A stretch of 64,000 nt of DNA from Polaromonas sp. (GCF_010365105.1 NZ_JAAFGZ010000001.1:62001-126000), one strand, 5' to 3'; positions 453-61,779 are shown, counted from the first letter of the stretch. Numbers and translations: made by a program. Notes: generated by a model from the letters alone, not told the origin.

Positions 453-519
453 TGCTACTGAATAAATAGCTGCAAGCCCAAGTCCAGAGAGCGAAAAAGC
501 CTGTTTTGATGCTTGAAAT
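453..519 (+). repeat. Family A dispersed element, copy a
   Basis: TGCTACTGAATAAATAGCTGCAAGCCCAAGTCCAGAGAGCGAAAAAGCCTGTTTTGATGCTTGAAAT. Confidence 0.85.
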
Positions 520-544
520 TCACCGGGCGGCCCACCGGCGCATG

Positions 545-1333
545 CTAACGGTGCTTGAAAGCCGGCTTGCGCTTGTTGACGAAAGCGTCCATGCCTTCCT
601 TCTGGTCCTCGGTGGCAAACAGCGCGTGGAACAGGCGCCGCTCGAACATCACGCCGTCGCTCAGGCCGCTTTCGAAGGCGCGGTTGATCGCTTCCTTGGC
701 CGCAAAGACGCTCGGCTGGCCGTAGCCGCAGATCATCAAGGCCGCGCCCAGCGCCTCGTCCATCAGTTTTTCCAGCGGCACGACGCGGCTGACCAGCCCG
801 GCGCGCTCGGCTTCCACCGCATCCATCATGCGGCCGGTCAGCGCCAGGTCCATGGCCTTGGCCTTGCCGATGGCGCGCGGCAGGCGCTGCGTGCCGCCGG
901 CGCCGGGAATGATGCCCAGCTTGATTTCGGGCTGGCCGAACCTGGCGTTGTCGGCGGCAATGATGAAGTCGCACATCATCGCCAGTTCGCAGCCGCCGCC
1001 CAGCGCAAAGCCGCTGACCGCCGCAATCACCGGCTTGCGCACGTTGCGGATTTGTTCCCAGTTGCGCGTGATGTAGTCGTTGTTGTAGACATCGGCAAAG
1101 CTGTACGTCGCCATGGCGCCGATGTCGGCGCCGGCGGCAAAGGCCTTTTCGCTGCCCGTCAGGATGATGCAGCCGATGCTGTCGTCGGCGTCGAAGGCTT
1201 TCAGTGCTGCACCCAGCTCGCCCATCAATTGGTCATTGAGCGCATTGAGCTGCTTGGGCCGGTTCAGCGTGATGATGCCTACCTGGCGGGCGTCCGGCCC
1301 TTGGGTAGACGTGACAATCGTTTCATAGGTCAT
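545..1333 (-). CDS. Enoyl-CoA hydratase/isomerase family protein
   Basis: [11 protein letters not shown]...[16 protein letters not shown]...AGADI...[15 protein letters not shown]: crotonase fold motifs. Confidence 0.93.
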
Positions 1334-1438
1334 GGTTCGGTCCTTGTAAAGCCTTTCATCATGCCATCCCCGCAAGGTAGCAAGAACTGGTCCGGCCCAG
1401 GCCGGCCGGCAATGCTAAATTCGATGCAGGAGAAAACC

Positions 1439-2257
1439 ATGACCCATCCAGAATCCGAACCCCGCACCGAATCCACGGTGCTGTATGCCACCCAGGGCGC
1501 CGTTGCCATCGTGACGCTTAACCGTCCGCAAGCACTGAACAGTTTCAGCCGCCAGATGCACCACGACCTGTGGGCCGCGCTGGACCGGGCCGAAGCCGAT
1601 CCGCTGATCCGTGCGCTGGTCATCACCGGCGCGGGCCGGGGCTTTTGCGCCGGTGCCGACCTGTCGGAGTTTGATTTCGCACCCGGTCCCAATCTGGTCG
1701 AACGCGCCGACCCCGGGCCGCTGATCGAGCAGGCCTTCAACCCGACGGCGCGCCGCCTGCTGGCGCTGCGCATGCCGACGGTGGCCGCCGTCAATGGCGT
1801 GGCGGCAGGCGCTGGCGCGTCGCTGGCGCTGACCTGCGACATGGCGGTGGCCGCGCCGACCGCCAGCTTCATCCAGGCCTTCAGCAAGATCGGCCTGGTT
1901 CCCGATGCGGGCGGCAGCTGGCTGCTGGTGCAAAAGCTGGGGCTGGCGCGCGCCATGGGGCTGGCATTGACCGGCGACAAGCTGCCGGCCGCGCAGGCCA
2001 GGGAGTGGGGAATGGTCTGGGACGTGGCTGACGACCCGCTGGCCGCCGCCATTGCGCTGGCCCAGCGGCTGGCCGTCATGCCGACCAAAGCGCTGGTGGC
2101 AACCCGGCATCTGCTGCGCGAAGGCATCACCCGGACGCTGGACCGGCAGCTCGACGAGGAGCGCGACCAGCAGTCGGCCTTGTCGCGGACGCACGACTAC
2201 ATCGAGGGCGTGACGGCTTTCCTTGAAAAGCGGCCAGCGGCCTTCAGGGGCGAGTAG
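1439..2257 (+). CDS. Enoyl-CoA hydratase/isomerase family protein (PaaG-like)
   Basis: MTHPESEPRTES..VAIVTLNRPQALNSF...GRGFCAGADLSEF...GAGASLALTCDMAVAA. Confidence 0.9.
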   Translation: MTHPESEPRTESTVLYATQGAVAIVTLNRPQALNSFSRQMHHDLWAALDRAEADPLIRALVITGAGRGFCAGADLSEFDFAPGPNLVERADPGPLIEQAFNPTARRLLALRMPTVAAVNGVAAGAGASLALTCDMAVAAPTASFIQAFSKIGLVPDAGGSWLLVQKLGLARAMGLALTGDKLPAAQAREWGMVWDVADDPLAAAIALAQRLAVMPTKALVATRHLLREGITRTLDRQLDEERDQQSALSRTHDYIEGVTAFLEKRPAAFRGE

Positions 2258-2301
2258 TCGGGCGCAAGCTGAAGGATGCCTTTGTTTTGGCTGGCAAGCA
2301 A

Positions 2302-2370
2302 ATTTTCAGCATCAAAAAGGCATCTTCCGAACGTCTGGCATGCACAAACAGCTATTGATTCAGTAGCAAA
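2302..2370 (-). repeat. Family A dispersed element, copy b
   Basis: Minus: TTTGCTACTGAATCAATAGCTGTTTGTGCATGCC..GATGCCTTTTTGATGCTGAAAAT. Confidence 0.87.
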
Positions 2371-2406
2371 GAGGATGCGGGAAGCCGCGCATGCCGGGAT
2401 GGAAAG

Positions 2407-4290
2407 TCAGACGGATGTGCCGCTGGGGTCCAGCCATTCATTGACCCGCGCCTCGTTCTTGACGGCCAGCCGCCAGGTCGTGATCGCAGGCGGCAAGGTC
2501 AGTTCAAGCCGCAGCAGGCGCTTGTCCCGCGCCACCAGCGCCATGACCTTTTTTGCATCGCCGGTATACAGCAGCAGGTCATCGAGTTTGTTCAGGCGCC
2601 ACCCCGCGTCTGGTTGCCGGCCTGTTTTTGATGAAACCGGCTTGCCGATCAACTCCAGCCCCAGCCATTCATCGCCAGCGGAAAAACCCGCCATTTCAGC
2701 CGCGCCACCGCGCAGCACGGTTTTGACCTGGACGCTGTGGTTTTCAGCGACGCGCAGGCCCAGCCGCTGCGCCAGTTGCGCCGGTTCATCCAGCACCGTC
2801 ACGCCATGCTGCTCCAGCAGGATTTTCAGGGGCAACTCGTCACGGCCATGCACCCAGGCGGCCAGTTCGGGCGCAAAGGAGCGCAGGCCCAGCGTTTCCA
2901 GCACGCTGGCCACGTCCAGCTCGCGCATCGGCCCGGCCTTGCAATGCTTCCACAGCGCGCGCATCACGTCGTCCAGTGTTTTTTCATGCGTGGTGCGGCC
3001 TTCGCTGCGCAGCGTCAGGTCCAGGCACAGGGCGACCAGCGCGCCTTTGGTGTAATAGCTGATCGTCGCGTTCGGCGTGTTCTCGTCAGGCCGGTAGTAC
3101 TTGACCCAGGCGTCAAAACTCGCCTCGGCCACGGACTGCACCTGCCGGCCGGGCGCCTGCGCCACCTGGTTGACGGTGGTGGTCAGCCGCTTCAGGTAGC
3201 CGGCGTTGTCCAGCAGCCCGGCGCGGCGCAGCAGCAGGTCGTCGTAGTAGCTGGTGAATCCTTCAAAGAACCACAGCAGTTCGGTGTAGTTTTCCTGGCC
3301 ATATTGGTAGTGTTCAAACTCGGCCGGGCGCAGGCGCTTGACGTTCCAGGTGTGGAAATACTCGTGGCTGATGAGGCCGCACAATGTGGCGTAGCCGTCA
3401 CTCGTTTTCGGATCGCCCTGGCGCGGCAGGTCTTTGCGGTTGCAGATCAGCGCTGTGGAATTGCGGTGCTCCAGCCCGCCGTAGCCGTCATCGACCACGT
3501 TCAGCATGAACAGGTAGTTTTGATGCAGCGGTTTGCGCTTGCCGTGCCAGAAGCGGATTTCGGCCTCGCAGATTTTTTGCGTGTCGGCCAGCAGCCGCGC
3601 GCCGTCGAAACTGTCGGCCGCGCCGGCCACGACAAAACGGTGCGGCACGCCGCGCGCAGTAAAACTGCCGCTCCAGAACGCGCCCATTTCGACCGGGCTG
3701 TCGACCAGCTCGTCGTAGTCGGCCGCCTGGTAGCGGCCAAAACCCCGGCTGTCGATGGCTTGCGGCGTCAATCCGGTGGCCAGCGACCAGCCGTCCATGG
3801 CCTTGGCCGCAGGAATTTCCAGCACATGCGGCAGGACCTCCTGGCCTTCGACCTTCAGGCAGACGCTGGTGCCGTTGAAAAAGCCGCGGCTTGCATCCAG
3901 CCAGGCGGTGCGTACCGAGTTGTCGTGCGCATACACCAGGTAGCGCAGCACCAGCGCGCTGTCCGGCGCACAGGCGATTTGCCAGTTGGATTTGTCCAGT
4001 TGTTCGACGGCCAGCGGCTGCGGATGGCGGCTCTCCTGGTGCGCCTGCAGGCCCTGCAGGTTTTTGGAAAACTCTCGCACCAGGTAGCTGCCTGGAATCC
4101 ACGCCGGCAGCGACACGCGCTGCAGCGCGGCGGGCCTGGCAATCGTCAGCGTGACCTGAAACAGGTGGGCGTGCAGGTCGCCAAGTTCGACGCGGTAGTG
4201 AAGCGCGGCCAAGGCCGGGGCTGGCTTGCTGGATTTTCTGGACTTCGGGGTTTTCGGGATGGGGGAGGGGTTGGGCGTGGAGGCGGGCAT
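2407..4290 (-). CDS. M61 family metallopeptidase (glycyl aminopeptidase-like, PDZ domain)
   Basis: LPAWIPGSYLVREFSKNLQ N-domain, HEYFHTWNVKRLRP zinc motif, C-terminal PDZ-like region. Confidence 0.92.
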   Translation of the reverse strand: MPASTPNPSPIPKTPKSRKSSKPAPALAALHYRVELGDLHAHLFQVTLTIARPAALQRVSLPAWIPGSYLVREFSKNLQGLQAHQESRHPQPLAVEQLDKSNWQIACAPDSALVLRYLVYAHDNSVRTAWLDASRGFFNGTSVCLKVEGQEVLPHVLEIPAAKAMDGWSLATGLTPQAIDSRGFGRYQAADYDELVDSPVEMGAFWSGSFTARGVPHRFVVAGAADSFDGARLLADTQKICEAEIRFWHGKRKPLHQNYLFMLNVVDDGYGGLEHRNSTALICNRKDLPRQGDPKTSDGYATLCGLISHEYFHTWNVKRLRPAEFEHYQYGQENYTELLWFFEGFTSYYDDLLLRRAGLLDNAGYLKRLTTTVNQVAQAPGRQVQSVAEASFDAWVKYYRPDENTPNATISYYTKGALVALCLDLTLRSEGRTTHEKTLDDVMRALWKHCKAGPMRELDVASVLETLGLRSFAPELAAWVHGRDELPLKILLEQHGVTVLDEPAQLAQRLGLRVAENHSVQVKTVLRGGAAEMAGFSAGDEWLGLELIGKPVSSKTGRQPDAGWRLNKLDDLLLYTGDAKKVMALVARDKRLLRLELTLPPAITTWRLAVKNEARVNEWLDPSGTSV

Positions 4291-5089: not shown

Positions 5090-5157
5090 GAGGCTATTAA
5101 AAAAATAGCTATCAGCGTCCGGTTAACGGGCGCTGGAGCCATTATTTGTTTGTAAAG
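5090..5157 (+). repeat. Family A dispersed element, copy c
   Basis: GAGGCTATTAAAAAAATAGCTATCAGCGTCCGGTTAACGGGCGCTGGAGCCATTATTTGTTTG. Confidence 0.8.
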
Positions 5158-11261: not shown

Positions 11262-11331
11262 GTTTTTTAAGCATTATTGGCTGTTTGCGCAATACCTACG
11301 GGTGCAAGTAGCTATTAATTTTATAGCATCA
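11262..11331 (-). repeat. Family A dispersed element, copy d
   Basis: Minus: TGATGCTATAAAATTAATAGCTACTTGCACCCGTAGGTATTGCGCAAACAGCC. Confidence 0.85.
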
Positions 11332-15802: not shown

Positions 15803-15830
15803 AAAAAAAGCGGCCTTGGCCGCTTTTTTT
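15803..15830 (+). terminator. Rho-independent terminator downstream of purH
   Basis: aaaaaaagcggccttggccgcttttttt, perfect symmetric stem with flanking A/T runs. Confidence 0.92.
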
Positions 15831-15892
15831 ATGAGAAATCAGGTGTTTGCGCAGGGTGGGTATGCGCAAGCAGCTATGCTATTAATAGCAAG
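15831..15892 (-). repeat. Family A dispersed element, copy e
   Basis: Minus: CTTGCTATTAATAGCATAGCTGCTTGCGCATACCCACCCTGCGCAAACACC. Confidence 0.85.
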
Positions 15893-25200: not shown

Positions 25201-28072
25201 ATGGGCACTTGAAAGCCACCAGCCCATCAGCGCGTCCACCGTGGCGCTTGCCCATTCACTGGCAGGAAGCTCTGCAACGGTGGGTTTTCTGGTCTTGTCC
25301 GACCTGGCGCGTGCGCTGGAGCATGCGCTTGAAAATTCCCGCAATCACCACCGCCATGGTGCCGGCGCCTATGGTGACTTGTTTATTGAGGCTTCCGAGG
25401 ACATACGCCGCCTGCTTCACCAGTTTGCAGCCGGTTTCCTGAGGCATCCCTTGCCTGGCATCCTTGAGCGTCTGGCCGGGCTTGAGTTTTCCGACTCGGT
25501 CTTGCCGGAAACAGACGACGATGGGCTTGAAGGCCTTGATGACCTGATGCCGGCCGATTCAGCCGACGTTCCTAGGCCCGCAGAGCGTTCGATGTCCAGC
25601 CTTGGCCGATTCATTAGCCAGGCAGCGTATGACGATGTCCATGACGACATTGATGCCGTCGATGTGATTGATCTTGACCTGTTCCCGATCTTTGAGGAGG
25701 AATGCGGCGAACTCATGCCTCGTCTGGGTTCGGCCCTGCGCCAATGGTCAGAAACGCCTGATGATGCCGGCCCTCGATTGGAAATGCTGCGTGTGCTGCA
25801 CACCCTCAAAGGCAGTGCACGCCTTGCCGGTGCGATGCGTCTTGGGGAGATGGCTCACCGGATCGAGTCCGAGCTTGCCTCCATTGGCTTGCAAGCGCCT
25901 GCCAGTCAGGAGATTGAATTTCTGTTGACCCGTTTTGACAGAATGCAAAATGCGCTTGAAAGCTTGCGTCGTCTGGACGCTGCAACGTCGCAGGCCATGC
26001 CCACCCAGGTTGAAACCTTTCCTGCCATTCCCTTTGAAGCGGAACCACAGGACCTTCATGTTTTCCTGTCCGAAAATGATGCTGAGGAAAATGATGTTGA
26101 AATTTCCCCCGCTATCGACAGCACCCGTGTTACCACCAGTGCCTATGCCTATGCCAGCAAAATTGAAATTCCCGGGCCGCAGGCCATGGTCATGCAGCCC
26201 TTGCGCCAGGCTGCCAATGCCAGCATACGGGTGCGCACCCAGTTGCTTGACCGCATGGTCAACCAGGCCGGTGAAGTCATGATCAGCCGTTCACGCCTTG
26301 AGGCAGAAGTGGGCCAGCTGCGCATTTCCCTGACCGACATGACGGGCAGCCTGACCCGCTTGCGCCAGCAGTTGCGGGACATCGAACTGCAGGCGGAAAC
26401 CCAGATGCAGTCGCGTCTGGCGCTGGCCAAGGAAGCCAAGGCAGGCTTCGATCCGCTGGAGTTCGACCGTTTTACCCGCGTGCAGGAATTGACCCGCATG
26501 ATGGCCGAGTCGGTGAACGACGTGGCCACCGTGCAGCGCACATTGCAGCGCACCATTGAAGCCACGGAAGACGACCTGGTCGCCCAGGGTCGCCAGGCAC
26601 GGGAACTGCAACGCGATTTGCTGCGTACCCGGATGGTTGAGTTTGAAAGCGTTTCCGAGCGGCTGTATCGCGTGGTCCGGCAAACGTCCAAGGAAACCGG
26701 CAAGCAGGTGCGCCTGGACCTGCACGGCGGCAACCTCGAAATGGACCGGGGCATGCTGGACCGCATGATGCCCGCTTTCGAGCATCTGCTGCGCAACTGC
26801 CTGACCCACGGCATCGAAGCACCGCAAGTGCGCGCCCGGGCCGGCAAGGAGGCTGTTGGTCTGATCACCATCCAGCTCCGCCAGGAAGGCAATGACGTCT
26901 CCGTGCAACTGGGTGATGACGGCGCCGGCCTGGACCTGGCCCGCATCCGTGCGCAAGGCATCAAACAAGGCCTGATACCGGCAGGCCAGGCCAGTGATGA
27001 TGAAGCCACGGCCAACCTGATCTTCCTCCCCGGCTTTTCAACGGCTCAGGAAGTGACTGAACTGGCCGGGCGCGGCATTGGACTGGATGTGGTGCGCAGC
27101 GAAGTGATTTCACTTGGCGGCAGGATCAAGACCTCGACCGCCCTGGGCAAAGGCACAGAATTCACCATGGTGTTGCCGCTGACCACGGCCGTGACGCAGG
27201 TGGTGATGATTCGCGCGGGCAGCATGTCGGTCGGTGTGCCGTCCAACGTGGTGGAAACCGTACGGCGCGCCAGTGCTGCCGAACTTCAACAGGCTTACCG
27301 CTCCGGCATGCTCGATGTGGGCGGCGAGTCCGTGCCATTTTTCTGGTCGGGCGCCTTGCTGCAGGCCTCGCATTTCAGCAGCGAAACCCAAGCCAAGACC
27401 ACACCTGTCGTTGTCTTCAGAAGCGCTGCACAGCGGATTGCCATGCACGTCGACGAGGTGCTGGGCAACCGCGAAGTGGTGGTGAAGAACCTTGGCCCCC
27501 AACTGTCCGGTTTGCCGGGACTGACCGGCATGTCGATGCTGCCGTCCGGTGCCGTGGTGCTGATCTACAACCCCGTGGCACTGGCCGCTGTCTACGGAAA
27601 ACAGGCCCGGTCATGGAGCAAGGATTACCTTGAGCAAGGCGCCGGTCGCCCGACAGGCAATATTGCACCGGTGCTGGCCGCACCGCGGACCCCACTGATT
27701 CTGGTGGTCGATGACTCCATCACCGTGCGCCGTGTGACCCAGCGGCTGCTGCTGCGCGATGGCTATCGGGTGGCCATGGCCGCCGACGGGCTGCAGGCGC
27801 TCGAAAGGCTGCAGGAAGAAATCCCGGCCGTGGTGCTCTCGGACATTGAAATGCCGCGCATGGACGGGTTTGACCTGGCGCGCAACATCCGGGCCGATGC
27901 GCGCACGAAAGACCTGCCAATCATCATGATCACGTCGCGCATTGCCGGAAAGCACAACGAGCATGCGGTGGAGCTGGGCGTCAACCATTACTTGGGCAAG
28001 CCTTATTCCGAAGACGAGTTGCTGCGGCTGATCCGGCAATACTGTTCGGTGCAAACTGCTGTATCAGCTTAA
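22238..28072 (+). CDS. chpA: ChpA-type hybrid CheA histidine kinase (multiple Hpt, HATPase, CheW-like, REC)
   Basis: 1944 aa; Hpt motifs AFHTLKGSARM and VLHTLKGSARL plus HSLAGSSATV; HLLRNCLTHGIE N-box; C-terminal REC LVVDDSITVRRVTQRLL...LSDIEMPRMDGFDL. Confidence 0.93.
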   Translation: MHSMVTNSIAAKPDVVMSDLGPLAWVLNELCKSLEAATKALKRFTKEAEAARGSDLGAADTSQLRTARQQLHQAVGVLEVVGLAEPAMVLRAMEAAVQKFVQQPELCSQDAVAKIECASFALTEYLEGVVADKPFSAVSLFPQFRDVQELVRAERIHPADLWSYEWRWLEPQVPPVDAHSYDDDAREILDKAILQLMKGKAPQAAAGLKDLSLGFAANQTRQQPRIFWLLAAGFFEAIAHNLLGSDLYVRRAASRILLQYASLSRGEAAIPERLVLDLLFFCFQAVSGRASDTPVLSAVRFTYGLARFKPVDYELVQFGRFDPALLAQARKRIVLAKDAWSSLCAGESTKIKQVSDQFSLVIDSLRKLHAASEPLAQALSQAIEATSNRKQVPDIPLAMEVATSMLYLEAVFDDLDPSDPQLAIRTTSLAERLQGVIDGGAPRPLDGWMEELYRRVSDKQTMSSVVSELRVALAEIESSLDLFFRDSQDKSLLQPVPAQLAQMRGVLSVLGLDQASRAVLQMKGTVEQMIDTEINDQQVRAAGTFEQLGNNLGVLSFLIDMLNYQPALVKKLFVYDEEKDQLTSLMGRPPSTGDAALSITLNIEPLSPDHAVIVEKAADKIFHEMPGDRSDGVSNPQGMVVPMAEFQSALLVDDAVFQPAAEVPALTKIKGIEMPLPSAMPETSAAIDFEEDDLRDIFLEEAREVAGHAVLAIAMLESHPEDLEQLTVLRRAFHTLKGSARMVGLDEFGEASWAMEQLLNSWLADQNAASREFRALCGQVMAGLERWIEDIAGNQDSAWSALAFCNSAQAMRIDGRYLALDLSDQSGNVFDTPSLVDIPVSQTALQRGTGIEGEPMPEFFFEEKPSILATTLPSGQADPVPAELEELDFDILFPMASQDSVVAAIADADAAPNVLTEAISLETPLGIPAGDSNITQEKAYESESHEEKEREDDTIKVIDGLRIGIPLYNVYLNEADEWSRRLVSEVAEWALESHQPISASTVALAHSLAGSSATVGFLVLSDLARALEHALENSRNHHRHGAGAYGDLFIEASEDIRRLLHQFAAGFLRHPLPGILERLAGLEFSDSVLPETDDDGLEGLDDLMPADSADVPRPAERSMSSLGRFISQAAYDDVHDDIDAVDVIDLDLFPIFEEECGELMPRLGSALRQWSETPDDAGPRLEMLRVLHTLKGSARLAGAMRLGEMAHRIESELASIGLQAPASQEIEFLLTRFDRMQNALESLRRLDAATSQAMPTQVETFPAIPFEAEPQDLHVFLSENDAEENDVEISPAIDSTRVTTSAYAYASKIEIPGPQAMVMQPLRQAANASIRVRTQLLDRMVNQAGEVMISRSRLEAEVGQLRISLTDMTGSLTRLRQQLRDIELQAETQMQSRLALAKEAKAGFDPLEFDRFTRVQELTRMMAESVNDVATVQRTLQRTIEATEDDLVAQGRQARELQRDLLRTRMVEFESVSERLYRVVRQTSKETGKQVRLDLHGGNLEMDRGMLDRMMPAFEHLLRNCLTHGIEAPQVRARAGKEAVGLITIQLRQEGNDVSVQLGDDGAGLDLARIRAQGIKQGLIPAGQASDDEATANLIFLPGFSTAQEVTELAGRGIGLDVVRSEVISLGGRIKTSTALGKGTEFTMVLPLTTAVTQVVMIRAGSMSVGVPSNVVETVRRASAAELQQAYRSGMLDVGGESVPFFWSGALLQASHFSSETQAKTTPVVVFRSAAQRIAMHVDEVLGNREVVVKNLGPQLSGLPGLTGMSMLPSGAVVLIYNPVALAAVYGKQARSWSKDYLEQGAGRPTGNIAPVLAAPRTPLILVVDDSITVRRVTQRLLLRDGYRVAMAADGLQALERLQEEIPAVVLSDIEMPRMDGFDLARNIRADARTKDLPIIMITSRIAGKHNEHAVELGVNHYLGKPYSEDELLRLIRQYCSVQTAVSA

Positions 28073-28129
28073 AAAGGTCTTTTGCGCAGATAGGTTGGGC
28101 GTTTGCTGCTATTGAAAAAATAGCGATCA
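28066..28129 (-). repeat. Family A dispersed element, copy f (contains the chpA stop codon)
   Basis: Minus: GATCGCTATTTTTTCAATAGCAGCAAACGCCCAACCTATCTGCGCAAAAGACC. Confidence 0.8.
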
Positions 28130-34588: not shown

Positions 34589-35743
34589 TCAGGCGCTGTC
34601 GCTTTTTGCTACTGAATCAATAGCTGTAAGCGCACGTGGAGTATGCGCAAGAGGCTTATTTTGTTCAGAATTTGCATCCGTTTCGCGCACGAAGGTCACC
34701 ACGTGGTCCACTTCGGCCCGGATGCCCACCCATTCGCCGACCGCATGGTCGTGGTGACTGGGCACATGGGCCAGCAATGCTTCGCCGCTGGCCAGCTGCA
34801 TCGTGTACAAAAACTCCGAACCGCGAAAAGACTTGCGGATGATGCGGGCCTTCACCGGCGCGTTGTCGTCATGCACGATGTCGTCGGCGCGCAGCAGCAC
34901 GTCGCATTCGCCGCCGGGGTAGCTCGACGGCAGCGGGCATTCGTCCAGCCCGACCAGGTCGCCCAGCGGTGTGCGCGCCACCACGCCGCTTGGCTGGTGC
35001 ATCAGGGTGGCCGGTACAAACACGCCGTGACCGATGAAATCGGCGACAAAGCGCGTGGCCGGCCGGTGGTACAGCGCATAGGCGTCTTCCCACTGGTGCA
35101 GGTGGCCTTCATGCATCACGCCGATGCGGTCGCCGATGGCAAAGGCTTCGAGCTGGTCGTGCGTCACGAACAGGGCGGTGGCGCCCGCCGCTTTCAGGAT
35201 GGCGCGCACCTCATGCGCCAGCCGTTCGCGCAGATCGACATCGAGGTTGGAAAACGGTTCGTCGAGCAACAGCAGGCGCGGCCCCGGCGCCAGCGCCCGG
35301 GCCAGCGCCACACGCTGCTGCTGTCCGCCCGACAGTTCGTGGGGAAAGACCTTGTGGGCATGGCCCATGCCGACCAGTTCCAGCACCTCGTCAACGCGCC
35401 GGCTGCGGGCCAAAGCGCCCAGGTGGTTCAGGCCGAAGGCCACGTTGCGGGCCACGTCAAGGTGCGGAAACAGCGCGTAATCCTGAAACACCATGCCGAT
35501 CTGGCGCGACTCGGCCGGCAGATGAAACTGCGGGCTGCTGACGATTTGCCGGGCCAGCCGGATGCTTCCCGCATGCGCGCGTTCCAGCCCGGCGACGGCG
35601 CGCAGCAAGGTGGTCTTGCCGCAACCCGACGGGCCAATCAGTACGCCGATCTCGCCGGCCTGCAGGTTGAACGACACGCCATCGACCGCCGCATGGCGGC
35701 TTTTTGCGTAGTGCACACCGAGTTGGGAGACTTCGAGAAACAT
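34589..35743 (-). CDS. ABC transporter ATP-binding protein (Fe3+/FbpC-like)
   Basis: Walker A GPSGCGKTTLL, LSGGQQQRVALARAL signature, LLLLDEPFSNLD; C-terminal regulatory domain. Confidence 0.92.
   Translation of the reverse strand: MFLEVSQLGVHYAKSRHAAVDGVSFNLQAGEIGVLIGPSGCGKTTLLRAVAGLERAHAGSIRLARQIVSSPQFHLPAESRQIGMVFQDYALFPHLDVARNVAFGLNHLGALARSRRVDEVLELVGMGHAHKVFPHELSGGQQQRVALARALAPGPRLLLLDEPFSNLDVDLRERLAHEVRAILKAAGATALFVTHDQLEAFAIGDRIGVMHEGHLHQWEDAYALYHRPATRFVADFIGHGVFVPATLMHQPSGVVARTPLGDLVGLDECPLPSSYPGGECDVLLRADDIVHDDNAPVKARIIRKSFRGSEFLYTMQLASGEALLAHVPSHHDHAVGEWVGIRAEVDHVVTFVRETDANSEQNKPLAHTPRALTAIDSVAKSDSA
34603..34674 (+). repeat. Family A dispersed element, copy h (inside the ABC ATPase 3' end)
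   Basis: TTTTTGCTACTGAATCAATAGCTGTAAGCGCACGTGGAGTATGCGCAAGAGGCTTATTTTGTTCAGAATTTG. Confidence 0.9.
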
Positions 35744-38529: not shown

Positions 38530-38644
38530 TCTTCACCTGAATGCAGGTCGGGGCAGTCCATGTCCGTGACTTCAAGGTCCTGAAAATCCCGGAACTGTGC
38601 AGACAGGCCGGGATTTTTCATTTTCAACGGGGAAGGCAACTCTC

Positions 38645-38702
38645 TTTTTGATAGCTGAAAGTGCATGCAGGACATGCGCAGCAAGCTGTTTTCATCAAGA
38701 AT
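38645..38702 (+). repeat. Family A dispersed element, copy i (left hairpin truncated)
   Basis: TTTTTGATAGCTGAAAGTGCATGCAGGACATGCGCAGCAAGCTGTTTTCATCAAGAAT. Confidence 0.72.
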
Positions 38703-38711
38703 CCTGAGGGT

Positions 38712-39860: not shown

Positions 39861-39870
39861 CAAGCATGAA

Positions 39871-39937
39871 TTGTTGATCAAATGTGGCTTTTGCGCATAT
39901 CCTGCTTGCACCTCTAGCTATTTAAATAATAGCGAAA
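39871..39937 (-). repeat. Family A dispersed element, copy j
   Basis: Minus: TTTCGCTATTATTTAAATAGCTAGAGGTGCAAGCAGGATATGCGCAAAAGCC. Confidence 0.85.
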
Positions 39938-45751: not shown

Positions 45752-47956
45752 TTATCGGCCGTTCATCAGCGGCAGTGGCGCCGCCTGGAACAGGGGTGCC
45801 GCCACGGGCCGGGCCGATTCCACCGCAGGCATGGGCGTGAGGGCCGGCAGCACCGGCGACTCATTGACCGGCACCAGGCTGCTGTTGACCGGCTGGGTCT
45901 GCTGCTGGGTGGTTCGCATCAGGTCATAGCGGTCCATCGACAGGGCGTTCGTCGAGGCGGCATCGCGCACCACCACCGGCCGCAAAAAGACCATCAGGTT
46001 GGTTTTCTTGCGGCTGCGGCTTTCGGACTTGAACAGGTTGCCGAACACCGGCACATCACCCAGGCCGGGCACCTTGTCCTGGTTGCCCGAATACTCGTCC
46101 TGCAGCAGCCCGCCGAGCACGATGATGGCGCCGTCCTCGACCAGCACGTGCGACTCGATCGAGCGCTTGTTGGTGATCAGTCCGGTGGCCGAATTGACCG
46201 AGCCCGGCTGCACGCTGGAGACTTCCTGGAAGATCGCCATCTTGACGGTGCCGTTCTCGCTGATCTGCGGCTTGACCCGCAAGGTCAGGCCGACGTCCTT
46301 GCGCTCGATGGTCTGGAAAGGGTTGACGCTGCCGTTGCTGCCGCCGCTGCCGGTGTTGGTGAACTGGCCGGTGACGAAAGGCACGTTCTGGCCAATGATG
46401 ATCTTGGCCTCTTCATTGTCCAGCGTGATGAGGTTGGGCGTTGACAGGATGTTGCCGGCGCCCGAGGTCTGCAGGAAGTTGGCCAGGAAGCCGAGGAAGT
46501 ACACGCCGTTGCTGCGCGCCGCCACACCCAGGTTCAGGCCGGTTCCGGGCGTCAGCGGCGTGCCGCTGGCCGCTGCGACCGCCGACTGGATGATGTTCTT
46601 GCCGCTGGCGCCAAAGTTGGTGCCCAGCAGGCCGATCAGGCTGTCGCCCTTGCCGCCGAGAGGCCCTTGCCACTGGATGCCGAACTCGGCCGCCTTGTCC
46701 ATGTTGACTTCGGCAATCAGGCTTTCCACATAGACCTGCGCCCGCCGGGCATCGAGCTTTTCAATCACCGCGCGCAGTTGCCGGTATTGCGGCTCGGAGG
46801 CGGTGATGATGAGCGAATTGGTCGACGGGTCGGCCTGGATCTGCCCGCCGGTCGAAGGGCCCGCGCTTGGCGTGATGGGGGCGGTTGCCGCACTGCTGGG
46901 CTGGCCCATGCTGCCGGCGCCGCCCGACTGTCCCGCCGTGTTCATGGCCGATGCATTGCCCATCTGCGGCGATGCCGGGCTGGCCGAGCCGCCGCCGGTC
47001 CCGGTCATGGAGGCGCGCAGGACCGTGGCCAGGTTGGTGGCGTCGGCATTCTTCAGGTAGACCACGTAGATGTTGCCGGCGTCGCCGTTCGGACCGTTCA
47101 GCGTCGGTGTGTCCAGGGTCCTGAGCAGCGACTTGACCAGTTCCAGGCGGGCGCCGTTGGCGGCACGGACAATCAGCGAATTGCTGCGCGGCTCGGCGAG
47201 CACGGTGGTTTTGTAGCTGGCCTCGGCCGTCACCACGCCGCCGCCGGCGCTGTTGTCGAGCAGCCGCGTGATCAGGGGCGCCAGGTCGGTCACCGACGCA
47301 TAGCGCACCGGGAGCAGTTCGACATTGGTGGCGTTGGCCACGTCCAGCGCGGCAATGATGCGGCCCAGGCGGTTCAGGTTGTCGGCATAGTCGGTGATCA
47401 CCAGCGAGTTGTTGCCGGGGTTGACGTTGATGGTGTTGTTCGGGCTGATCAGCGGCCGCAGGATGGGCAGCAGGTTGTTGGCATTCTCAAAGCTGAGCTT
47501 GAAGATCGTCGTGGCGATCTGGCCGCCGCCGACCGGCACGTTGGTGGACACGGCGCCGCCCTGCAGCTTGGCATCGGCCTCGGGAACGATCTTGTCCAGG
47601 CCGGCGGCGTTGACCACGGTAAAGCCCTGCAGCCGCAGGATGGCCAGGAACTGGCTGTAGGCCACGGCCGGGCTGACCGGGCGTTCGGTGGTCAGCGTGA
47701 TCGTGCCCTTGACGCGCGGATCGACCACCACGTTGCGGCCCGTCAGCGTGGCCATGGTCCGGGCCACCGCGTCGATGTTGGCATTGACGAAGTTCAGCGT
47801 GATGGCTTCACCACGCCGGCCTTCGGCTGCCGGCGACGCGACTTGCGGCTGAGCCTGCAAATTTGAAGGAAATATGCCTGTTCCGCAGGCTAGCAGGGCA
47901 CTTCCAGCTATTGAAAAAATAGCAAGCTGGTGTCGTTTGAAGTTCGGATGTTTCAT
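45752..47956 (-). CDS. gspD: Type II secretion secretin GspD
   Basis: N-domains LNFVNANIDAVARTMATLTGRN; secretin core VPGLGDVPVFGNLFKSESRSRKKTNLMVFLRP. Confidence 0.96.
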   Translation of the reverse strand: MKHPNFKRHQLAIFSIAGSALLACGTGIFPSNLQAQPQVASPAAEGRRGEAITLNFVNANIDAVARTMATLTGRNVVVDPRVKGTITLTTERPVSPAVAYSQFLAILRLQGFTVVNAAGLDKIVPEADAKLQGGAVSTNVPVGGGQIATTIFKLSFENANNLLPILRPLISPNNTINVNPGNNSLVITDYADNLNRLGRIIAALDVANATNVELLPVRYASVTDLAPLITRLLDNSAGGGVVTAEASYKTTVLAEPRSNSLIVRAANGARLELVKSLLRTLDTPTLNGPNGDAGNIYVVYLKNADATNLATVLRASMTGTGGGSASPASPQMGNASAMNTAGQSGGAGSMGQPSSAATAPITPSAGPSTGGQIQADPSTNSLIITASEPQYRQLRAVIEKLDARRAQVYVESLIAEVNMDKAAEFGIQWQGPLGGKGDSLIGLLGTNFGASGKNIIQSAVAAASGTPLTPGTGLNLGVAARSNGVYFLGFLANFLQTSGAGNILSTPNLITLDNEEAKIIIGQNVPFVTGQFTNTGSGGSNGSVNPFQTIERKDVGLTLRVKPQISENGTVKMAIFQEVSSVQPGSVNSATGLITNKRSIESHVLVEDGAIIVLGGLLQDEYSGNQDKVPGLGDVPVFGNLFKSESRSRKKTNLMVFLRPVVVRDAASTNALSMDRYDLMRTTQQQTQPVNSSLVPVNESPVLPALTPMPAVESARPVAAPLFQAAPLPLMNGR
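47858..47926 (-). repeat. Family A dispersed element, copy k (inside the gspD signal-peptide coding region)
   Basis: Minus: CTTGCTATTTTTTCAATAGCTGGAAGTGCCCTGCTAGCCTGCGGAACAGGCATATTTCCTTCAAATTTG; shares GCTATTTTTTCAATAGC exactly with copy f. Confidence 0.8.
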
Positions 47957-49280: not shown

Positions 49281-50506
49281 GGAAAACGCTCCTCTTTCAT
49301 CGTCAGGCCATCGGCCTCGGTGCGCAGGCGGTAACCCCGGGGCTGCAGCCGTGCCGCAGTTTCGGCCAATGCGGAAGCTGAAAGTGAAACCCCTTTCAGA
49401 CGCAGTTCGTTTGCTATGAATTCAATAGCTTCTGGCGTCGGCGCATCGGGCGCTGCAGCCTGAAAATGCCCCAGCATGGTTTCCATGTCGGCAGACGAGG
49501 CGACGCCATTGCGGCGCTGCAGGTCGGACACCGCCCGGGCCATCTGCACCGGCGCATCGACGACCACGCGCACGTCGGGGAAGGTGGCGGTGAGCAGGTT
49601 GCGGATGGCGGCGCGCTGCGCCGCCTGCGCGGACTGCTCTTTCCAGGCCCAGGCCTGAAGGCCTGCCAGGTTGACCAGCACCAGGGCCACGCTGGCCCAG
49701 CGCGCAGCGCGCCAGCGCGGCGCCCTGAACAGCGAGGAAATCATGGCTGACAGATGCTTGCGGGTGCGCGTGCCCCGGGTGTAGAGCAGGTCGAACTGCG
49801 CCAGGTCCCAGTCCGACTGCGCCGCCGCCAGCCAGCGCTCGGGCGGCGTCTGCAGCCGGGCAGGACGGTTGAAGAAATGTTCTGCCAAGGCGGCCACGCC
49901 GGGTTCGGCCAGAACTTCGGAATCCTCTGGCCATGCCATCAGCGCGGCACTGGCCACCGACAGCGGCAGCAGCGTCACGCCCTGTGGCCCGGTGCGTATC
50001 AGCTGGGGCTGGTCGGGCGTGCCGGTGACATGCAGCGACGCAGGCGCATCGTCAGCAGGTGGCGTCAGTTCGGGGACGATGCGCGCGACCGGCCGGCCGG
50101 CCTGCGTCAGCATCGCCAGCCAGGCATGCAGCCAGGCTCTTTCGCAGGTCGCTACCCATACCGGTTGGTCGGCGCGAGGCTTCGGCTCGATGGCGAAATG
50201 CAGCTGGCTGGTCTCGTCGAGCACGCTGTCTTCGAGCAGCCCGTCGAGCACGGCACGCAGCCGCCCGGCATTGCCATCCTGGAACAAGCCGCCTTTCAGC
50301 GCACCCCGGGGCAGGGCTAGCCGGTGCCAGGACAGGCGGCAGGCGGGAACCACCGCCACGATGTCGGCACCGGAGGGCGCGGGCAACAGCGCTGCGGGCG
50401 CCTCGACAGCGCGCAAAACGGTGAACCCGTCATCGCTCAGAACGCCCTCGCAAAGCATGGCGGCGGTCGGAAGTGCCCGGGGAAGGGTGACGATCAGGGT
50501 TGTCAT
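49277..50506 (-). CDS. gspL: Type II secretion protein GspL
   Basis: Actin-like cytoplasmic domain, TM, C-terminal ferredoxin-like domain; overlaps gspM by 4 nt. Confidence 0.87.
   Translation of the reverse strand: MTTLIVTLPRALPTAAMLCEGVLSDDGFTVLRAVEAPAALLPAPSGADIVAVVPACRLSWHRLALPRGALKGGLFQDGNAGRLRAVLDGLLEDSVLDETSQLHFAIEPKPRADQPVWVATCERAWLHAWLAMLTQAGRPVARIVPELTPPADDAPASLHVTGTPDQPQLIRTGPQGVTLLPLSVASAALMAWPEDSEVLAEPGVAALAEHFFNRPARLQTPPERWLAAAQSDWDLAQFDLLYTRGTRTRKHLSAMISSLFRAPRWRAARWASVALVLVNLAGLQAWAWKEQSAQAAQRAAIRNLLTATFPDVRVVVDAPVQMARAVSDLQRRNGVASSADMETMLGHFQAAAPDAPTPEAIEFIANELRLKGVSLSASALAETAARLQPRGYRLRTEADGLTMKEERFP
49409..49468 (+). repeat. Possible family A element, copy l (inside gspL)
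   Basis: GTTTGCTATGAATTCAATAGCTTCTGGCGTCGGCGCATCGGGCGCTGCAGCCTGAAAATG; the right half is weak. Confidence 0.55.
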
Positions 50507-54317: not shown

Positions 54318-54398
54318 GACGCTACCGTTATCAGTCCCGGTGGTTTACACCTTGTAATCATTAAGCGATGATTCTTTCTTTGACCCCTATTGAACACC

Positions 54399-56214: not shown

Positions 56215-57432
56215 ATGGCAACCGCACTGTCCAAAGATATCAAGGAATATGTCTTCGAGTGGGAAGGCAAGGATCGCGGCGGCAAACAGGTTCGCGGCGA
56301 GGTCCGTGCCGGGGGCGAAAACCAGGTCAAGGTGTCGCTGCGCAGGCAAGGCGTGATGGCAACCAAGATCAAAAAGCGCCGTATGCGGTCAGGCAAGGCC
56401 ATCAAACCGCGTGACATTGCCATTTTCACCCGCCAGCTGGCCACGATGATGAAGGCTGGCGTGCCGTTGCTGCAATCTTTCGACATCGTGGGCCGCGGCA
56501 ATCCCAACGGCAGCGTGACCAAACTGCTGAACGATGTGCGTACCGACGTGGAAACCGGAACGTCGCTGAGCGGTGCTTTTCGCAAGTATCCGATGTACTT
56601 CAATGCGCTGTACTGCAACCTTGTCGAGGCGGGTGAGGCGGCCGGCATTCTGGAGTCGCTGCTGGACCGCCTGGCGGTCTACATGGAGAAAACCGAGGCC
56701 ATCAAGTCCAAGATCAAGTCGGCGCTGATGTATCCGGCTTCCGTGGTGGTGGTGGCTTTCGTGGTGGTGGCCGTGATCATGATTTTTGTGATTCCTGCGT
56801 TCAAGGAGGTGTTTTCATCCTTTGGCGCCGATCTGCCGGCGCCCACCTTGATCGTCATGGCCATCAGTGAGTTCTTCGTCGCCTATTGGTGGCTTATTTT
56901 TGGCGGCGTCGGCGGCGGAATCTATTTTTTCCTGCAGGCCTGGAAACGCAGCGAGAAAATGCAGAAGGTCATGGACCGGCTGCTGCTGAAAATGCCAGTG
57001 TTCGGCACCCTGATCGAAAAATCCGTCATTGCCCGCTGGACCCGTACCCTGTCCACGATGTTCGCGGCCGGTGTGCCGCTGGTCGAAGCGCTGGACTCGG
57101 TTGGCGGTGCATCGGGAAACTCTCTCTACGCGGACGCCACCGAGAAAATCCAGCAGGAAGTCTCGACCGGCACCAGCCTGACCGCTGCCATGGGCAATGC
57201 CAACCTGTTTCCCACCATGGTGCTGCAGATGTGCGCCATTGGCGAGGAGTCGGGCTCGGTGGACCACATGCTGGGCAAGGCAGCCGATTTTTATGAAGCC
57301 GAGGTCGATGAAATGGTGGCCGGCCTGTCCAGCCTGATGGAGCCCATCATCATCGTGTTTCTGGGAACCCTGATCGGCGGGATCGTGGTGTCGATGTACC
57401 TGCCGATCTTCAAGCTGGGTCAAGTCGTTTGA
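56215..57432 (+). CDS. pilC: Type IV pilus inner membrane protein PilC
   Basis: YVFEWEGKDRGGKQVRGEVRAGGENQVKVSLRRQGVMATKIKKR; two T2SSF domains. Confidence 0.96.
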   Translation: MATALSKDIKEYVFEWEGKDRGGKQVRGEVRAGGENQVKVSLRRQGVMATKIKKRRMRSGKAIKPRDIAIFTRQLATMMKAGVPLLQSFDIVGRGNPNGSVTKLLNDVRTDVETGTSLSGAFRKYPMYFNALYCNLVEAGEAAGILESLLDRLAVYMEKTEAIKSKIKSALMYPASVVVVAFVVVAVIMIFVIPAFKEVFSSFGADLPAPTLIVMAISEFFVAYWWLIFGGVGGGIYFFLQAWKRSEKMQKVMDRLLLKMPVFGTLIEKSVIARWTRTLSTMFAAGVPLVEALDSVGGASGNSLYADATEKIQQEVSTGTSLTAAMGNANLFPTMVLQMCAIGEESGSVDHMLGKAADFYEAEVDEMVAGLSSLMEPIIIVFLGTLIGGIVVSMYLPIFKLGQVV

Positions 57433-58289
57433 TGCTGCTGGCAGCGGAGATGGGCACCGGATTCGTCGCGGCGCTCGCTGGTATCCTTGGTTTGCTCATT
57501 GGCAGCTTTCTCAATGTCGTCATCTACCGGGTTCCCAGGATGATGGAGCGTCAGTGGGCCGCCGAATGTGCCGAATTGAACGGCGCGCCAGCGCAGCCCG
57601 CAGAAAAGTTCAACCTGCTGGCACCGCGTTCGCGCTGCTCCAGTTGCGGCCATGTGATCCACTGGTACGAAAACATTCCGGTGCTCAGCTATGTTTTCCT
57701 TCGCGGCAAGTGCTCGGCTTGCGGCGCACCTTACGGTGTTCGCTATCCACTTGTCGAGGCCGTCACGGGCGCCCTGTTTTTCTTTTGCGCCTGGCGCTGG
57801 GGTTGGACGATGACGGCGCTGGCCTGGTGCGGATTTTCTGCTGCGCTGCTGGCATTGGCCATGATTGACTGGGACACGACCCTGTTGCCCGACGACATCA
57901 CCTTGCCCCTGCTGTGGGCGGGGCTGATCGCTGCAGCATTGCAGTGGAACCCGGCGGTCGATCTGCCATCGGCCCTGTGGGGCGGGGTGGCCGGCTATCT
58001 TTCACTGTGGGCGGTGTACTGGGCTTTCAAGCTGGCCACCGGCAAGGAAGGCATGGGTTACGGCGATTTCAAGCTGTTTGCCGCGCTCGGGGCCTGGTTT
58101 GGCTGGACCGCGCTGGTGCCCATGATCCTGATGGCTTCGGTGATTGGCGCGGCAGTCGGCATCGCGATGAAGTTCTCCAGCGGCCTGCGCGAGGGCGGCT
58201 ATGTGCCCTTTGGCCCTTTTCTGGCCGGGGCGGGCCTTACCGCGATGATTTTCGGCCCCCAGTCGATTCTTCGGTTCATTGGTTTGTAA
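57432..58289 (+). CDS. pilD: Prepilin peptidase PilD
   Basis: LLIGSFLNVVIYRVPRMM; CSSCGHVIHWYENIPVLSYVFLRGKCSACGAP; GMGYGDFKLFAALGAW. Confidence 0.96.
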   Translation: MLLAAEMGTGFVAALAGILGLLIGSFLNVVIYRVPRMMERQWAAECAELNGAPAQPAEKFNLLAPRSRCSSCGHVIHWYENIPVLSYVFLRGKCSACGAPYGVRYPLVEAVTGALFFFCAWRWGWTMTALAWCGFSAALLALAMIDWDTTLLPDDITLPLLWAGLIAAALQWNPAVDLPSALWGGVAGYLSLWAVYWAFKLATGKEGMGYGDFKLFAALGAWFGWTALVPMILMASVIGAAVGIAMKFSSGLREGGYVPFGPFLAGAGLTAMIFGPQSILRFIGL

Positions 58290-58292
58290 GCC

Positions 58293-58904
58293 ATGCATTC
58301 GTCGATTCAGCGCATCGGCCTGACGGGCGGCATTGGCAGCGGCAAAAGCACCGTGGCGCGCATTCTGGTGGCTTTTGGCGCCGCGTTGATCGATGCGGAT
58401 GTGATTTCCCGCGAACTGACAGCGCCCGGAGGCGCCGCCATCGGCGAACTGGCGAAGCAGTTCGGGCCGCACATCATCACTGCAGAAGGCGCGATGGACC
58501 GTGAGCGCATGCGCCAGCTTGCGTTCAGCGACTCCGCGATCAAAGGGCAGCTCGAAGCCATCATTCATCCGCTGGTCAGCCAGGAATCCACCCGCCAGGC
58601 CAGCGCCGCCGTGCAATCCGGCCGCGCCTGCATCGTGTTCGACATTCCCTTGCTGGTGGAGTCCGGGCGCTGGCGCCAGCAGCTCGACCGCGTGCTGGTG
58701 GTGGACTGTACGGAAGAAACGCAAATTGCCCGTGTCATGGCCAGAAACGCCTTGTCGCGTGAAATGGTCGTGAAAATCATCGCCGGCCAGGCCAGCCGCG
58801 CGCAACGGCTGGCGGCGGCGGATGCCTGTATTTGTAACGAGGGTTTGTCGCTGCATGCGCTTGAGCGGCAGGTGCGTGAGCTGGCGAACAGCTTCGGGCT
58901 ATGA
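58293..58904 (+). CDS. coaE: Dephospho-CoA kinase
   Basis: IGLTGGIGSGKSTVARILVAFGAALIDADVISRELTAPG. Confidence 0.96.
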   Translation: MHSSIQRIGLTGGIGSGKSTVARILVAFGAALIDADVISRELTAPGGAAIGELAKQFGPHIITAEGAMDRERMRQLAFSDSAIKGQLEAIIHPLVSQESTRQASAAVQSGRACIVFDIPLLVESGRWRQQLDRVLVVDCTEETQIARVMARNALSREMVVKIIAGQASRAQRLAAADACICNEGLSLHALERQVRELANSFGL

Positions 58905-58941
58905 TGACAAAACATCTACTGAAGCCAGGAAAACCAGTTCC

Positions 58942-59697
58942 GTGATTCTTTACGAGCATCCCTTCAACGAACGCATACGCACCTATCTGCGGCTTGAGCA
59001 CCTGTTTTTGCGCCTGGCCGAGCTGGTAAAACGGGAAAGCCCGATAGACCATCACCACGCGCTGGCGACCATTTTTGAAATCATGGACGTCGGTGCGCGG
59101 GCAGACCTGAAAACCGATGTGCTCAAGGACATTGAAAAACAGAAACACGTGCTCAACGGCTACCGTGGCAACCCGGTCATCTCCGAGCGGGTGCTTGACG
59201 ACATCACCGCCGAGCTTGAAGCATGTTTTTCCAGCATGAATGAACTCTCCGGCAAGGTCGGCCAGTCATTGACCGAAAACGACTGGCTGATGAGCATTCG
59301 CAGCCGTGTCGGCATTCCGGGCGGCACCTGCGAATTCGACTTGCCGGCCTACCATGCCTGGCAGCACCTTGGCGTCAACGTTCGCCAGCACGACCTGCAG
59401 CGCTGGGTGTCGCCGCTGGTGCCGCTGGCCGAGTCGCTGAACCTGCTGCTCAAACTGGTGCGCGATTCGGGGGCGCCGCAAAAGGTGATCGCGCCAGCCG
59501 GCCAGTACCAGCAAATGCTGCCGCAGGGACGCACGTTCCAGCTGCTGCGGCTGAGGCTGCGTTCGGGCGTCGCGGTGATTCCCGAAATCAGCTGCAACCG
59601 CCTGATGGTGTCGGTGCGTTTCATGTCGCATGACAACGACGGTCGCCAGCAGGCCAGCAACGAGGAAACCGTGTTTGACCTGACACTGTGCACCTGA
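58942..59697 (+). CDS. zapD: Cell division protein ZapD
   Basis: (V)[27 protein letters not shown] start; coaE-zapD-yacG order. Confidence 0.94.
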
Positions 59698-60303: not shown

Positions 60304-60314
60304 GGCAGAAACGA

Positions 60315-60338
60315 AAAACGCCCGCAGTGCGGGCGTTG
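60315..60338. terminator. Hairpin between convergent small protein gene and grxD
   Basis: aacgcccgcagtgcgggcgtt flanked by A run. Confidence 0.7.
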
Positions 60339-60357
60339 CAGGTTGGGGACGCCGGCT

Positions 60358-60687
60358 TCAGTCCTGGGGCGTGCCAAGCATTTCCTGGAGTTCACCGTTC
60401 TGGTACATCTCCATCATGATGTCCGAGCCGCCCACGAACTCTCCCTTGACATACAACTGGGGAATGGTCGGCCAGTTGCTGTAGGTCTTGATGCCGTTGC
60501 GGATGCCTTCGTCTTCCAGCACATTGACCGTGGCCGGCTTGGTCACGCCGCAGGCCTTGAGCACCTGGATCGCGCGTCCGGAAAAACCGCACATCGGGAA
60601 CTGGGCCGTGCCCTTCATGAAAAGCACCACATCGCTGGATTTGACAATCTGGTCAATGCGCTGCTGGGTCGGGTCGGTGGGGCTCAT
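60358..60687 (-). CDS. grxD: Monothiol glutaredoxin, Grx4 family
   Basis: VVLFMKGTAQFPMCGFSGRAIQVLKACGV...YSNWPTIPQLYVKGEFVGGSDIMMEM. Confidence 0.96.
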   Translation of the reverse strand: MSPTDPTQQRIDQIVKSSDVVLFMKGTAQFPMCGFSGRAIQVLKACGVTKPATVNVLEDEGIRNGIKTYSNWPTIPQLYVKGEFVGGSDIMMEMYQNGELQEMLGTPQD

Positions 60688-60845
60688 GTTGAAATCCTTC
60701 AGGGTGAAAAGGCCTTTCCAGGCCGTGAGGTCGGTAACCGGCAATGGGGGCCGGAGCGGTGAATGCATGGAATTGAATGCAGCCATTCCTAAAACTGATT
60801 ATCGCCGTCTGCCCAATGCCGCGCACCCATCAGGGATTGTCTCTG

Positions 60846-61697
60846 TCATGCCGTCCATTGTCCGCCCGAGCAGCGCTCGATGCCTGCCAGGTCGTGGCGG
60901 CTCTGCACTTGCAGGAATCCTTGCTGCATTAGCAGCGAGCGGACCTGCACCGCCTGGTCGTAGCCATGCTCCAGAAGCAGCCAGCCGCCCGGCAGCAGGT
61001 GCACGGGCGCCTGCTGGATGATGTGCCGGATGTCGTCAAGCCCGTCCGTGCCGGCAGCCAGCGCCTGCAGCGGTTCATGCGTCAGGGCCGCCAGGTGCGG
61101 GTCGGCGCTGGCAATGTAGGGCGGATTGCTGGCGATCAGGTGAAAGCTTGCACGGACCTGCTCAAGCCAGCAGCTTTCAATGAAGTCCACGGCCAGGCCC
61201 AGCCGCCGGGCGTTTTCACGGGCGACATCCAGCGCACCGGCGCTCGCATCGACCGCCGTGACCTGCGCTTCGCTGCCTGCCGCCTTCAGGCTGTGCGCAA
61301 TGGCCAGGGCAATCGCGCCGCTGCCCGTGCCCAGGTCCAGCACTTGCAGCGGGTGTGCCGCGCCTTGCGCCTTCAACACCTCCAGCGACCATTCCACCAG
61401 GGTTTCGGTATCGGGCCGGGGCACCAGCACGCGCTTGTCGACTTGTAGCGCCAGTCCAAAGAACTCCTTGCTGCCGACGATGTAGGCCAGCGGCTCGCCA
61501 GTCGCCCGGCGCAGGCTCAGCGCGCAAAACAAGTCGATCAACCCTGGCGCGAGTTCGTCGGTGTCATGCGCCAGCAGCCAGGCACGTTCGATGGCGGGCT
61601 TGCCCAGCGCGTGCAGCAGCAGCAACTGGGCGTCCAGCCGGTCGAGCCCAAGGCGTTGGGCCTCTGCCAGGGCTAGCGCGCAGGTGAATGAGTTCAC
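60846..61697 (-). CDS. prmC: Release factor glutamine N5-methyltransferase PrmC
   Basis: VLVPRPDTETLVEW...VLDLGTGSGAIALAIA...IASNPPYIA. Confidence 0.95.
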   Translation of the reverse strand: MNSFTCALALAEAQRLGLDRLDAQLLLLHALGKPAIERAWLLAHDTDELAPGLIDLFCALSLRRATGEPLAYIVGSKEFFGLALQVDKRVLVPRPDTETLVEWSLEVLKAQGAAHPLQVLDLGTGSGAIALAIAHSLKAAGSEAQVTAVDASAGALDVARENARRLGLAVDFIESCWLEQVRASFHLIASNPPYIASADPHLAALTHEPLQALAAGTDGLDDIRHIIQQAPVHLLPGGWLLLEHGYDQAVQVRSLLMQQGFLQVQSRHDLAGIERCSGGQWTA

Positions 61698-61710
61698 GGT
61701 CTTGCTTTGA

Positions 61711-61779
61711 GTTGCTATGTAAATAATAGCTGCTTGTGCTTATGGATACTGCGCAAGAGGGCAATTTGATATAAGAAAC
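61711..61779 (+). repeat. Family A dispersed element, copy m (between prfA and prmC)
   Basis: GTTGCTATGTAAATAATAGCTGCTTGTGCTTATGGATACTGCGCAAGAGGGCAATTTGATATAAG. Confidence 0.9.

Follow-up and report, generated by a model that had tools for sequence, protein, structure and literature searches.

The DNA uptake sequences (DUS) of Neisseriaceae and the uptake signal sequences (USS) of Pasteurellaceae are marked by an origin through point mutation without insertion, by even spacing and by a lack of orientation bias; they are in excess in noncoding DNA with further copies in coding sequence, have dialects that track clades, and make up as much as 1% of a chromosome (PMC1939737, PMC3630211). Here we analyse a dispersed element, family A, in a 64,000-nucleotide stretch of Polaromonas sp. 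DNA (GCF_010365105.1 NZ_JAAFGZ010000001.1:62001-126000, hereafter the window) and in the genome around it. Family A resembles DUS and USS in numbering hundreds of copies or more, in covering about 1% of the chromosome on both strands equally, in being in excess in noncoding DNA while occupying permissive coding sites, in having dialects, and in arising by point mutation in existing sequence, here shown for coding copies. It differs from them in belonging to another bacterial family, the Comamonadaceae, and an uptake role for it is putative; no paper combining "DNA uptake sequence" and "Comamonadaceae" was found in a literature search. Our results make it very probable that what is recognised is the DNA of the motif itself, whichever way it points, and that the predicted trans-acting factor reading it co-evolves in specificity with the motif's core.

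Parts of the element have been recorded before. Table 7 of PMC5217627 (2017) gives two pairs as separate, unexplained "potential novel motifs", namely ATAGCT(N)22CAAAAG in P. naphthalenivorans CJ2 (125 copies) and GCTTAT(N)5AAGCG in A. ebreus TPSY (114 copies), which are intergenic and often convergent, like family A. The first corresponds to columns 19-24 and 47-52 of our consensus, with 9 copies in register in the window's own genome. The second is the core of a G121-type dialect; it occurs in 3 copies of genome G121, all at column 31, and in 11 further named Comamonadaceae loci. An initial annotation, made from the window's sequence, had taken the family to be unnamed, and it is indeed absent from Rfam (the sole match above the gathering score in the window was a tRNA), but two motif pairs in register were thus already in print. 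The 66-bp element, its dialects, its evolution in place and its family range are beyond that earlier description.

Other repeats offer partial parallels. Beta-proteobacterial repeat elements (BRE), found in Polaromonas and other betaproteobacteria, are 75-91 bp long, often tandem and about 69% GC in Bordetella (PMC3110155); family A is set apart by description, with a GC content of about 43% and no tandem copies in our sample. Repetitive extragenic palindromes and bacterial interspersed mosaic elements (REP/BIME), with their REP-associated tyrosine transposases (RAYT), are likewise dispersed, intergenic, 3' of genes and capable of forming hairpins. Family A, however, is not inserted in coding sequence, lacks REP-like clustering and a link to RAYT flanks, and switches dialect in place. 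Rickettsia palindromic elements (RPEs) also carry a palindrome and lie in frame within genes. RPEs are insertions, whereas orthologues without our motif are equally long.

Copy number and anatomy of the element

A 74-column hidden Markov model (HMM) was built from 105 seeds anchored on GCTA-N9-TAGC with a TGCG-like word nearby, and was applied to the window together with a further 1.19 Mb of its genome in 20-kb stretches (1.256 Mb in total, 28% of the 4.5-Mb assembly). It returned 200 matches at E<0.01, while an order-2 Markov shuffle gave none at that threshold and the reversed genome none even at E<1; column shuffles served as controls for alignment statistics. All 12 window positions proposed initially were recovered, in both orientations (E = 4e-15 to 1.7e-6), and their density, 12 in 64 kb, is that of the genome at large. 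The proposal of a high-density dispersed family is therefore borne out by a clear excess over shuffled sequence. Extrapolated to the assembly, this makes about 700 copies at an average spacing of ~6 kb, or about 1% of the genome (~700 x 66 bp). Each strand of the 4.5-Mb genome has 77 occurrences of the string GCTATTN5AATAGC, versus 0 in the control, and all strict palindromes in the sample lie inside full elements (88/88, 0 solitary).

Family A is a rigid, double-stranded DNA motif of about 66 bp that consists of a palindrome GCTAY-N-WWW-N-ATAGC, a lineage-specific core and a pair of W-tracts separated by about 10 bp. Its consensus over columns 7-70 is roughly GCTATTnAAWTnATAGC-TGCTTGCGCAnGCCnGnATGCGCAAAAGGCC-TTTTTGATnCTTAAAA, and its mean GC content is 43%. 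The spacing from the palindrome to the TGCGCAA-like core is exactly 19 nt in 100 of 105 palindrome-anchored seeds, and every HMM-aligned copy is ungapped (192/192). Either A or T is tolerated in the W-tracts at columns 14-16, 57-60 and 67-70. Conservation falls to zero directly beyond columns 5-71, and neither terminal repeats nor conserved termini or flanks were found at the element ends. The information content is about 49 bits, a figure that comes from HMM-selected copies and that common ancestry could inflate, versus the ~13.6 bits needed to locate ~700 sites. The patterns first written down for the family gave 0-1 matches when searched literally; the tail AGGCCTnTTTTGATnCTTGAAAT was found within 3 mismatches in one copy, the actual feature being the two W-tracts. 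One small subset of copies in the same genome shares the hairpin-1 variant GCTACTGAATCAATAGC and the tail GATGCTGAAAA (e.g. window 2300, L034:17574 and L006:4240), hinting at a subfamily.

The initial annotation had also read covarying arms around a variable loop as a sign of selection on structure. Among the 192 ungapped copies, no stem pair rises meaningfully above column-shuffled expectation (mutual information with average product correction, per-pair shuffles; |z| mostly <2), and in 18% of copies a G at column 47 disrupts pair 29-47 without a compensating change. The loop does differ in sequence among copies, but its length is fixed, and the 3' arm TGCGCAA is much better conserved than its 5' partner. 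The cores of some lineages cannot form hairpin 2, as in genome G113, whose core TTTGCGCAGATTCTATGCCGGCGA lacks the complementary arms. With no covariation and such cores, selection on secondary structure is not supported.

Evolution in place, dialects and taxonomic range

Gene calls were home-made and simple, as was the assignment of orthology, which applies to all context counts in this study. The in-place comparison is strong for coding copies only; for intergenic copies, comparison of orthologous lengths yielded 4 informative pairs. The purK copy (HMM E=1.2e-13) is ungapped against PDB homologues and against nine congeners, and PurK orthologues without the motif in G003 and G005 are identical in length. 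Copies in PurK, NuoEF, IleRS and YfiH show 0 gaps within the element against genus orthologues (MAFFT), with small, nearly balanced gaps for NuoEF and IleRS in some blastn alignments. IleRS orthologues without the motif in G001 and G003 are as long as motif-bearing ones, and the NIF3 copy is colinear with E. coli YbgI to within one residue. YfiH exceeds its E. coli counterpart in length, yet is ungapped against congener G004. Thus, none of the tested coding copies showed a length change against orthologues or any sign of insertion with added residues. Because these copies are colinear with equally long orthologues that lack the motif, we conclude that in the tested coding copies it has been gained, lost and changed in place by substitution. 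For these copies, the REP-like or miniature inverted-repeat transposable element (MITE)-like mobility that had been suggested is contradicted.

The motif is in phase 0 in 33 of 39 coding copies, which would follow if most of its reading frames contain stops. This bias prompted us to consider RPE-like in-frame insertion, which the orthologue and PDB alignments ruled out.

Between congeners the core changes in concert. The window species has the core TGCGCAAAAGG and G004 has AAGGGCTGGAGG, at a purK identity of 84% between the two. Column 45 is C in 185 of 192 own copies and G in 64 of 66 G004 copies, and at four orthologous coding sites (purK, yfiH, L046:1043 and L046:6257) the same codons carry GCG in the window species versus GGG in G004. 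Further cores occur in the same register, with nearly all copies ungapped, in genomes of other genera, namely G121 (CGCTTATTTTACAAGCGCTAGAGG), G050 (GCGCAGGTGGAATATGCGCTAGAGG), G042 (AGGCAATAAATACGCCGGCTACAG) and G113. Across the dialect genomes the element is found once per 3.5-6.1 kb.

The element is confined to one family. The palindrome is present in 46 of 121 Comamonadaceae genomes, up to 87 times per genome (control about 0), and in the rest of the order it occurs 0-2 times, the same as the control. Among the named genera in which the exact string is found are Polaromonas, Rhodoferax, Acidovorax, Diaphorobacter, Simplicispira, Giesbergeria, Ottowia, Curvibacter and Hylemonella. Phage sequences gave no convincing match to the element, and 250 kb of sequence from two Polaromonas plasmids yielded 5 copies versus 31-38 expected, a depletion of about 7-fold. 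Four of the 5 plasmid copies lie as follows.

L325:21070-21132 and 22430-22490, on P. naphthalenivorans pPNAP01
L328:19623-19680 and 21128-21189, on Polaromonas pA29BJ2

These four copies stand at gene borders inside defence clusters (BREX-2 and a type I restriction system), which suggests that these clusters derive from motif-bearing chromosomes.

Placement in the genome and in the window

Among 196 copies, 86 lie between co-directional genes, 49 between convergent and 12 between divergent genes, 39 are within called genes and 10 at stretch edges. Copies lie a median of 31 bp from a gene 3' end, and the element occupies 52% of convergent intergenic regions of at least 60 nt, compared with 21% of co-directional and 10% of divergent ones. 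The initial statement that most copies directly follow a gene's 3' end or separate convergent genes therefore holds as an enrichment; called genes nevertheless contain about 20% of copies, the one placed at 49409 in the window among them. There is no strand bias (36 same versus 50 opposite orientation; 25:24 in convergent regions). No intergenic region holds two copies (145 copies in 145 regions, versus 13-20 doubles expected), and neither tandem nor clustered copies were seen in the sample. Gaps of <2 kb number 15 versus 23 in a region-type-matched simulation (P=0.015), a modest extra evenness (P=0.015-0.08). Element-free stretches include a flagellar operon and a glycan-export cluster, neither clearly mobile DNA. 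A further element-free stretch with few genes, L033:4000-19000 (G000:C12 ~44000-59000), may be an island or remnant. The window copies are the following.

Copy 1: 454..518, plus strand, E=1.2e-11; beside tRNA-Met (281-357) and a gene called at 509
Copy 2: 2303..2367, minus strand, E=3.6e-12; between convergent genes 509-2257 (plus) and 2407-4290 (minus)
Copy 3: 5093..5157, plus strand, E=1.0e-6; core GGGCGCT instead of TGCGCAA
Copy 4: 11263..11327, minus strand, E=3.6e-11; co-directional genes either side
Copy 5: 15825..15889, minus strand, E=2.1e-11; convergent genes, adjoined by a separate terminator-like hairpin (AAAAAAAGCGGCCAAGGCCGCTTTTTTT)
Copy 6: 28060..28124, minus strand, E=1.1e-9; between convergent CheA-like hybrid kinase and photolyase genes
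Copy 7: 34608..34672, plus strand, E=4.3e-15, the strongest copy in the sample; within an ABC-transporter ATPase gene (34589-35773, minus)
Copy 8: 38639..38703, plus strand, E=2.7e-8; degenerate left palindrome arm
Copy 9: 39869..39933, minus strand, E=6.1e-12; divergent region
Copy 10: 47859..47923, minus strand, E=8.7e-11; co-directional genes either side
Copy 11 (weak): 49413..49477, plus strand, E=1.7e-6; inside a GspL/T2SSL-like gene (Pfam T2SSL), antisense, phase 0
Copy 12: 61714..61778, plus strand, E=8.4e-12; between PrmC-like and RF-1 genes

Copy 6 overlaps the final codons of the left-hand gene, and GCTATTAAAAAATAGC is retained at the same place in congener G001, which at the site of copy 12 lacks about 57 nt. 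Copy 7 supplies the C-terminal codons of the ATPase gene, and orthologue alignments stop at the element edge.

A recognised DNA signal and its alternatives

Origin in place, rigid spacing like that of a protein site, independence of orientation and concerted change of dialect together point to recognition of the DNA by a co-evolving trans-acting factor. The same combination of features matches the uptake-sequence literature (PMC1939737, PMC3630211), which gives a self-DNA uptake signal the leading place among possible roles. We therefore propose, tentatively, that the likeliest role of family A is that of a DNA-uptake or self-recognition signal for natural transformation, like DUS and USS. Motif-bearing DNA would be preferentially taken up and recombined and, as with the DUS of Neisseria and the USS of Haemophilus, near-matches would be driven towards the consensus wherever change is tolerated, namely in intergenic regions and at permissive codons. 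Family A could then plausibly be a third, independently evolved genome-wide self-DNA signal, here in Comamonadaceae. It would be a long sequence in three parts that serves uptake or recognition, and a putative co-evolving receptor or DNA-binding protein would drive the concerted change of its core at hundreds of loci from one congener to another.

Several observations weigh against an uptake role. At 66 bp and ~49 bits the element is far larger than DUS and USS (about 9-29 bp), and its GCTA..TAGC is palindromic, which DUS and USS are not. No receptor or link to competence was found; ComEC is present in 118 of 121 family genomes, so near-universal that its distribution does not discriminate. 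Genome G051 has no detectable comEC yet has 8 strict palindromes. The enrichment between convergent genes fits a function at gene ends equally well. Finally, the intergenic sites 34602 and 61708 are shorter by 29-89 nt in relatives, and pairwise identities among copies are more dispersed than in column shuffles (standard deviation 0.071 versus 0.056), indicating some copy-to-copy relatedness and weak subfamilies. Taken together, the subfamily structure and the two shorter sites make some history of duplication, insertion or deletion possible for intergenic copies.

As to competence genes, the window's own genome holds two full-length ComEC-type genes (G000:C2:9431 and G000:C65:6883). In G016, which has 4 strict palindrome copies, comEC is split over three frames (G016:C1:1836740-1837544). 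The few palindromes in G016 and G051 are possibly what is left of a motif that decayed once competence had been lost.

The main rival is that the reader is an intracellular protein and the motif a chromosomal site, for nucleoid architecture, supercoiling management or a roadblock at the ends of transcription units, with a specificity that drifts between lineages. We regard this as possible, if somewhat doubtful. Occupancy of half the convergent regions, proximity to gene 3' ends, the limit of one copy per region, the absence of strand preference and the depletion on plasmids all agree with such a site, and a dyad with W-tracts would suit binding by several dimers. However, about a fifth of the copies are inside genes, the convergent and 3' bias could be simple promoter avoidance, and the excess of information over that needed to locate the sites suggests a force beyond ordinary site selection, with the caveat of common ancestry given above.

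It is unlikely that family A is a REP/BIME- or MITE-like mobile element whose copies diverged after spreading by transposition, for instance through a RAYT. Hundreds of dispersed intergenic copies, the weak subfamily structure and the two sites shorter in relatives are what this reading would predict. A RAYT-like Y1_Tnp gene, present in 90 of 121 family genomes, also occurs in 34 of 35 motif-bearing versus 56 of 86 other genomes (p=1.4e-4), but this co-occurrence is confounded by family phylogeny, and the RAYT flanks are at background, with a single neighbouring copy at about 10 of 20 loci. Motif-rich G031 lacks Y1_Tnp altogether. Coding copies are colinear when aligned to orthologues or to distant PDB homologues, indels are essentially absent, and dialects change in concert at orthologous sites. 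The element has a sharp conservation boundary, no terminal repeats and no tandem or clustered copies, none of which fits transposition. The initial annotation had suggested a search for a RAYT with the element on its flanks; the genome has a single RAYT-like gene, and the element does not flank it preferentially. That gene lies at L001:1-3330 (G000:C63, ~152008), and a degenerate sequence resembling the element follows shortly downstream (L001 ~1115-1185).

A structured RNA or bidirectional terminator with two hairpins under selection is very improbable: placement near 3' ends and between convergent genes and the two inverted repeats visible in individual copies are in its favour, but arms do not covary, W-tracts are T or A interchangeably and without strand bias, the G113 core cannot form hairpin 2, a terminator-like hairpin followed by T occurs in 4 of 125 elements, and copies lie within purK-, ileS- and nuoEF-like genes. 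An apparent exclusion of intrinsic terminators near elements disappeared after a length-matched random 74-nt mask and was due to lost space.

If family A is indeed an uptake signal, it would be a third case beside Neisseriaceae and Pasteurellaceae, the families with uptake sequences in the cited literature, and the dispute over self-recognition, molecular drive and chromosomal function would become testable in environmental bacteria. Even with an intracellular protein as the reader, concerted change at ~700 sites between congeners would represent an unusual coupled evolution of sites and protein. For genome annotation, a "dispersed palindromic repeat" need not mean a mobile element.

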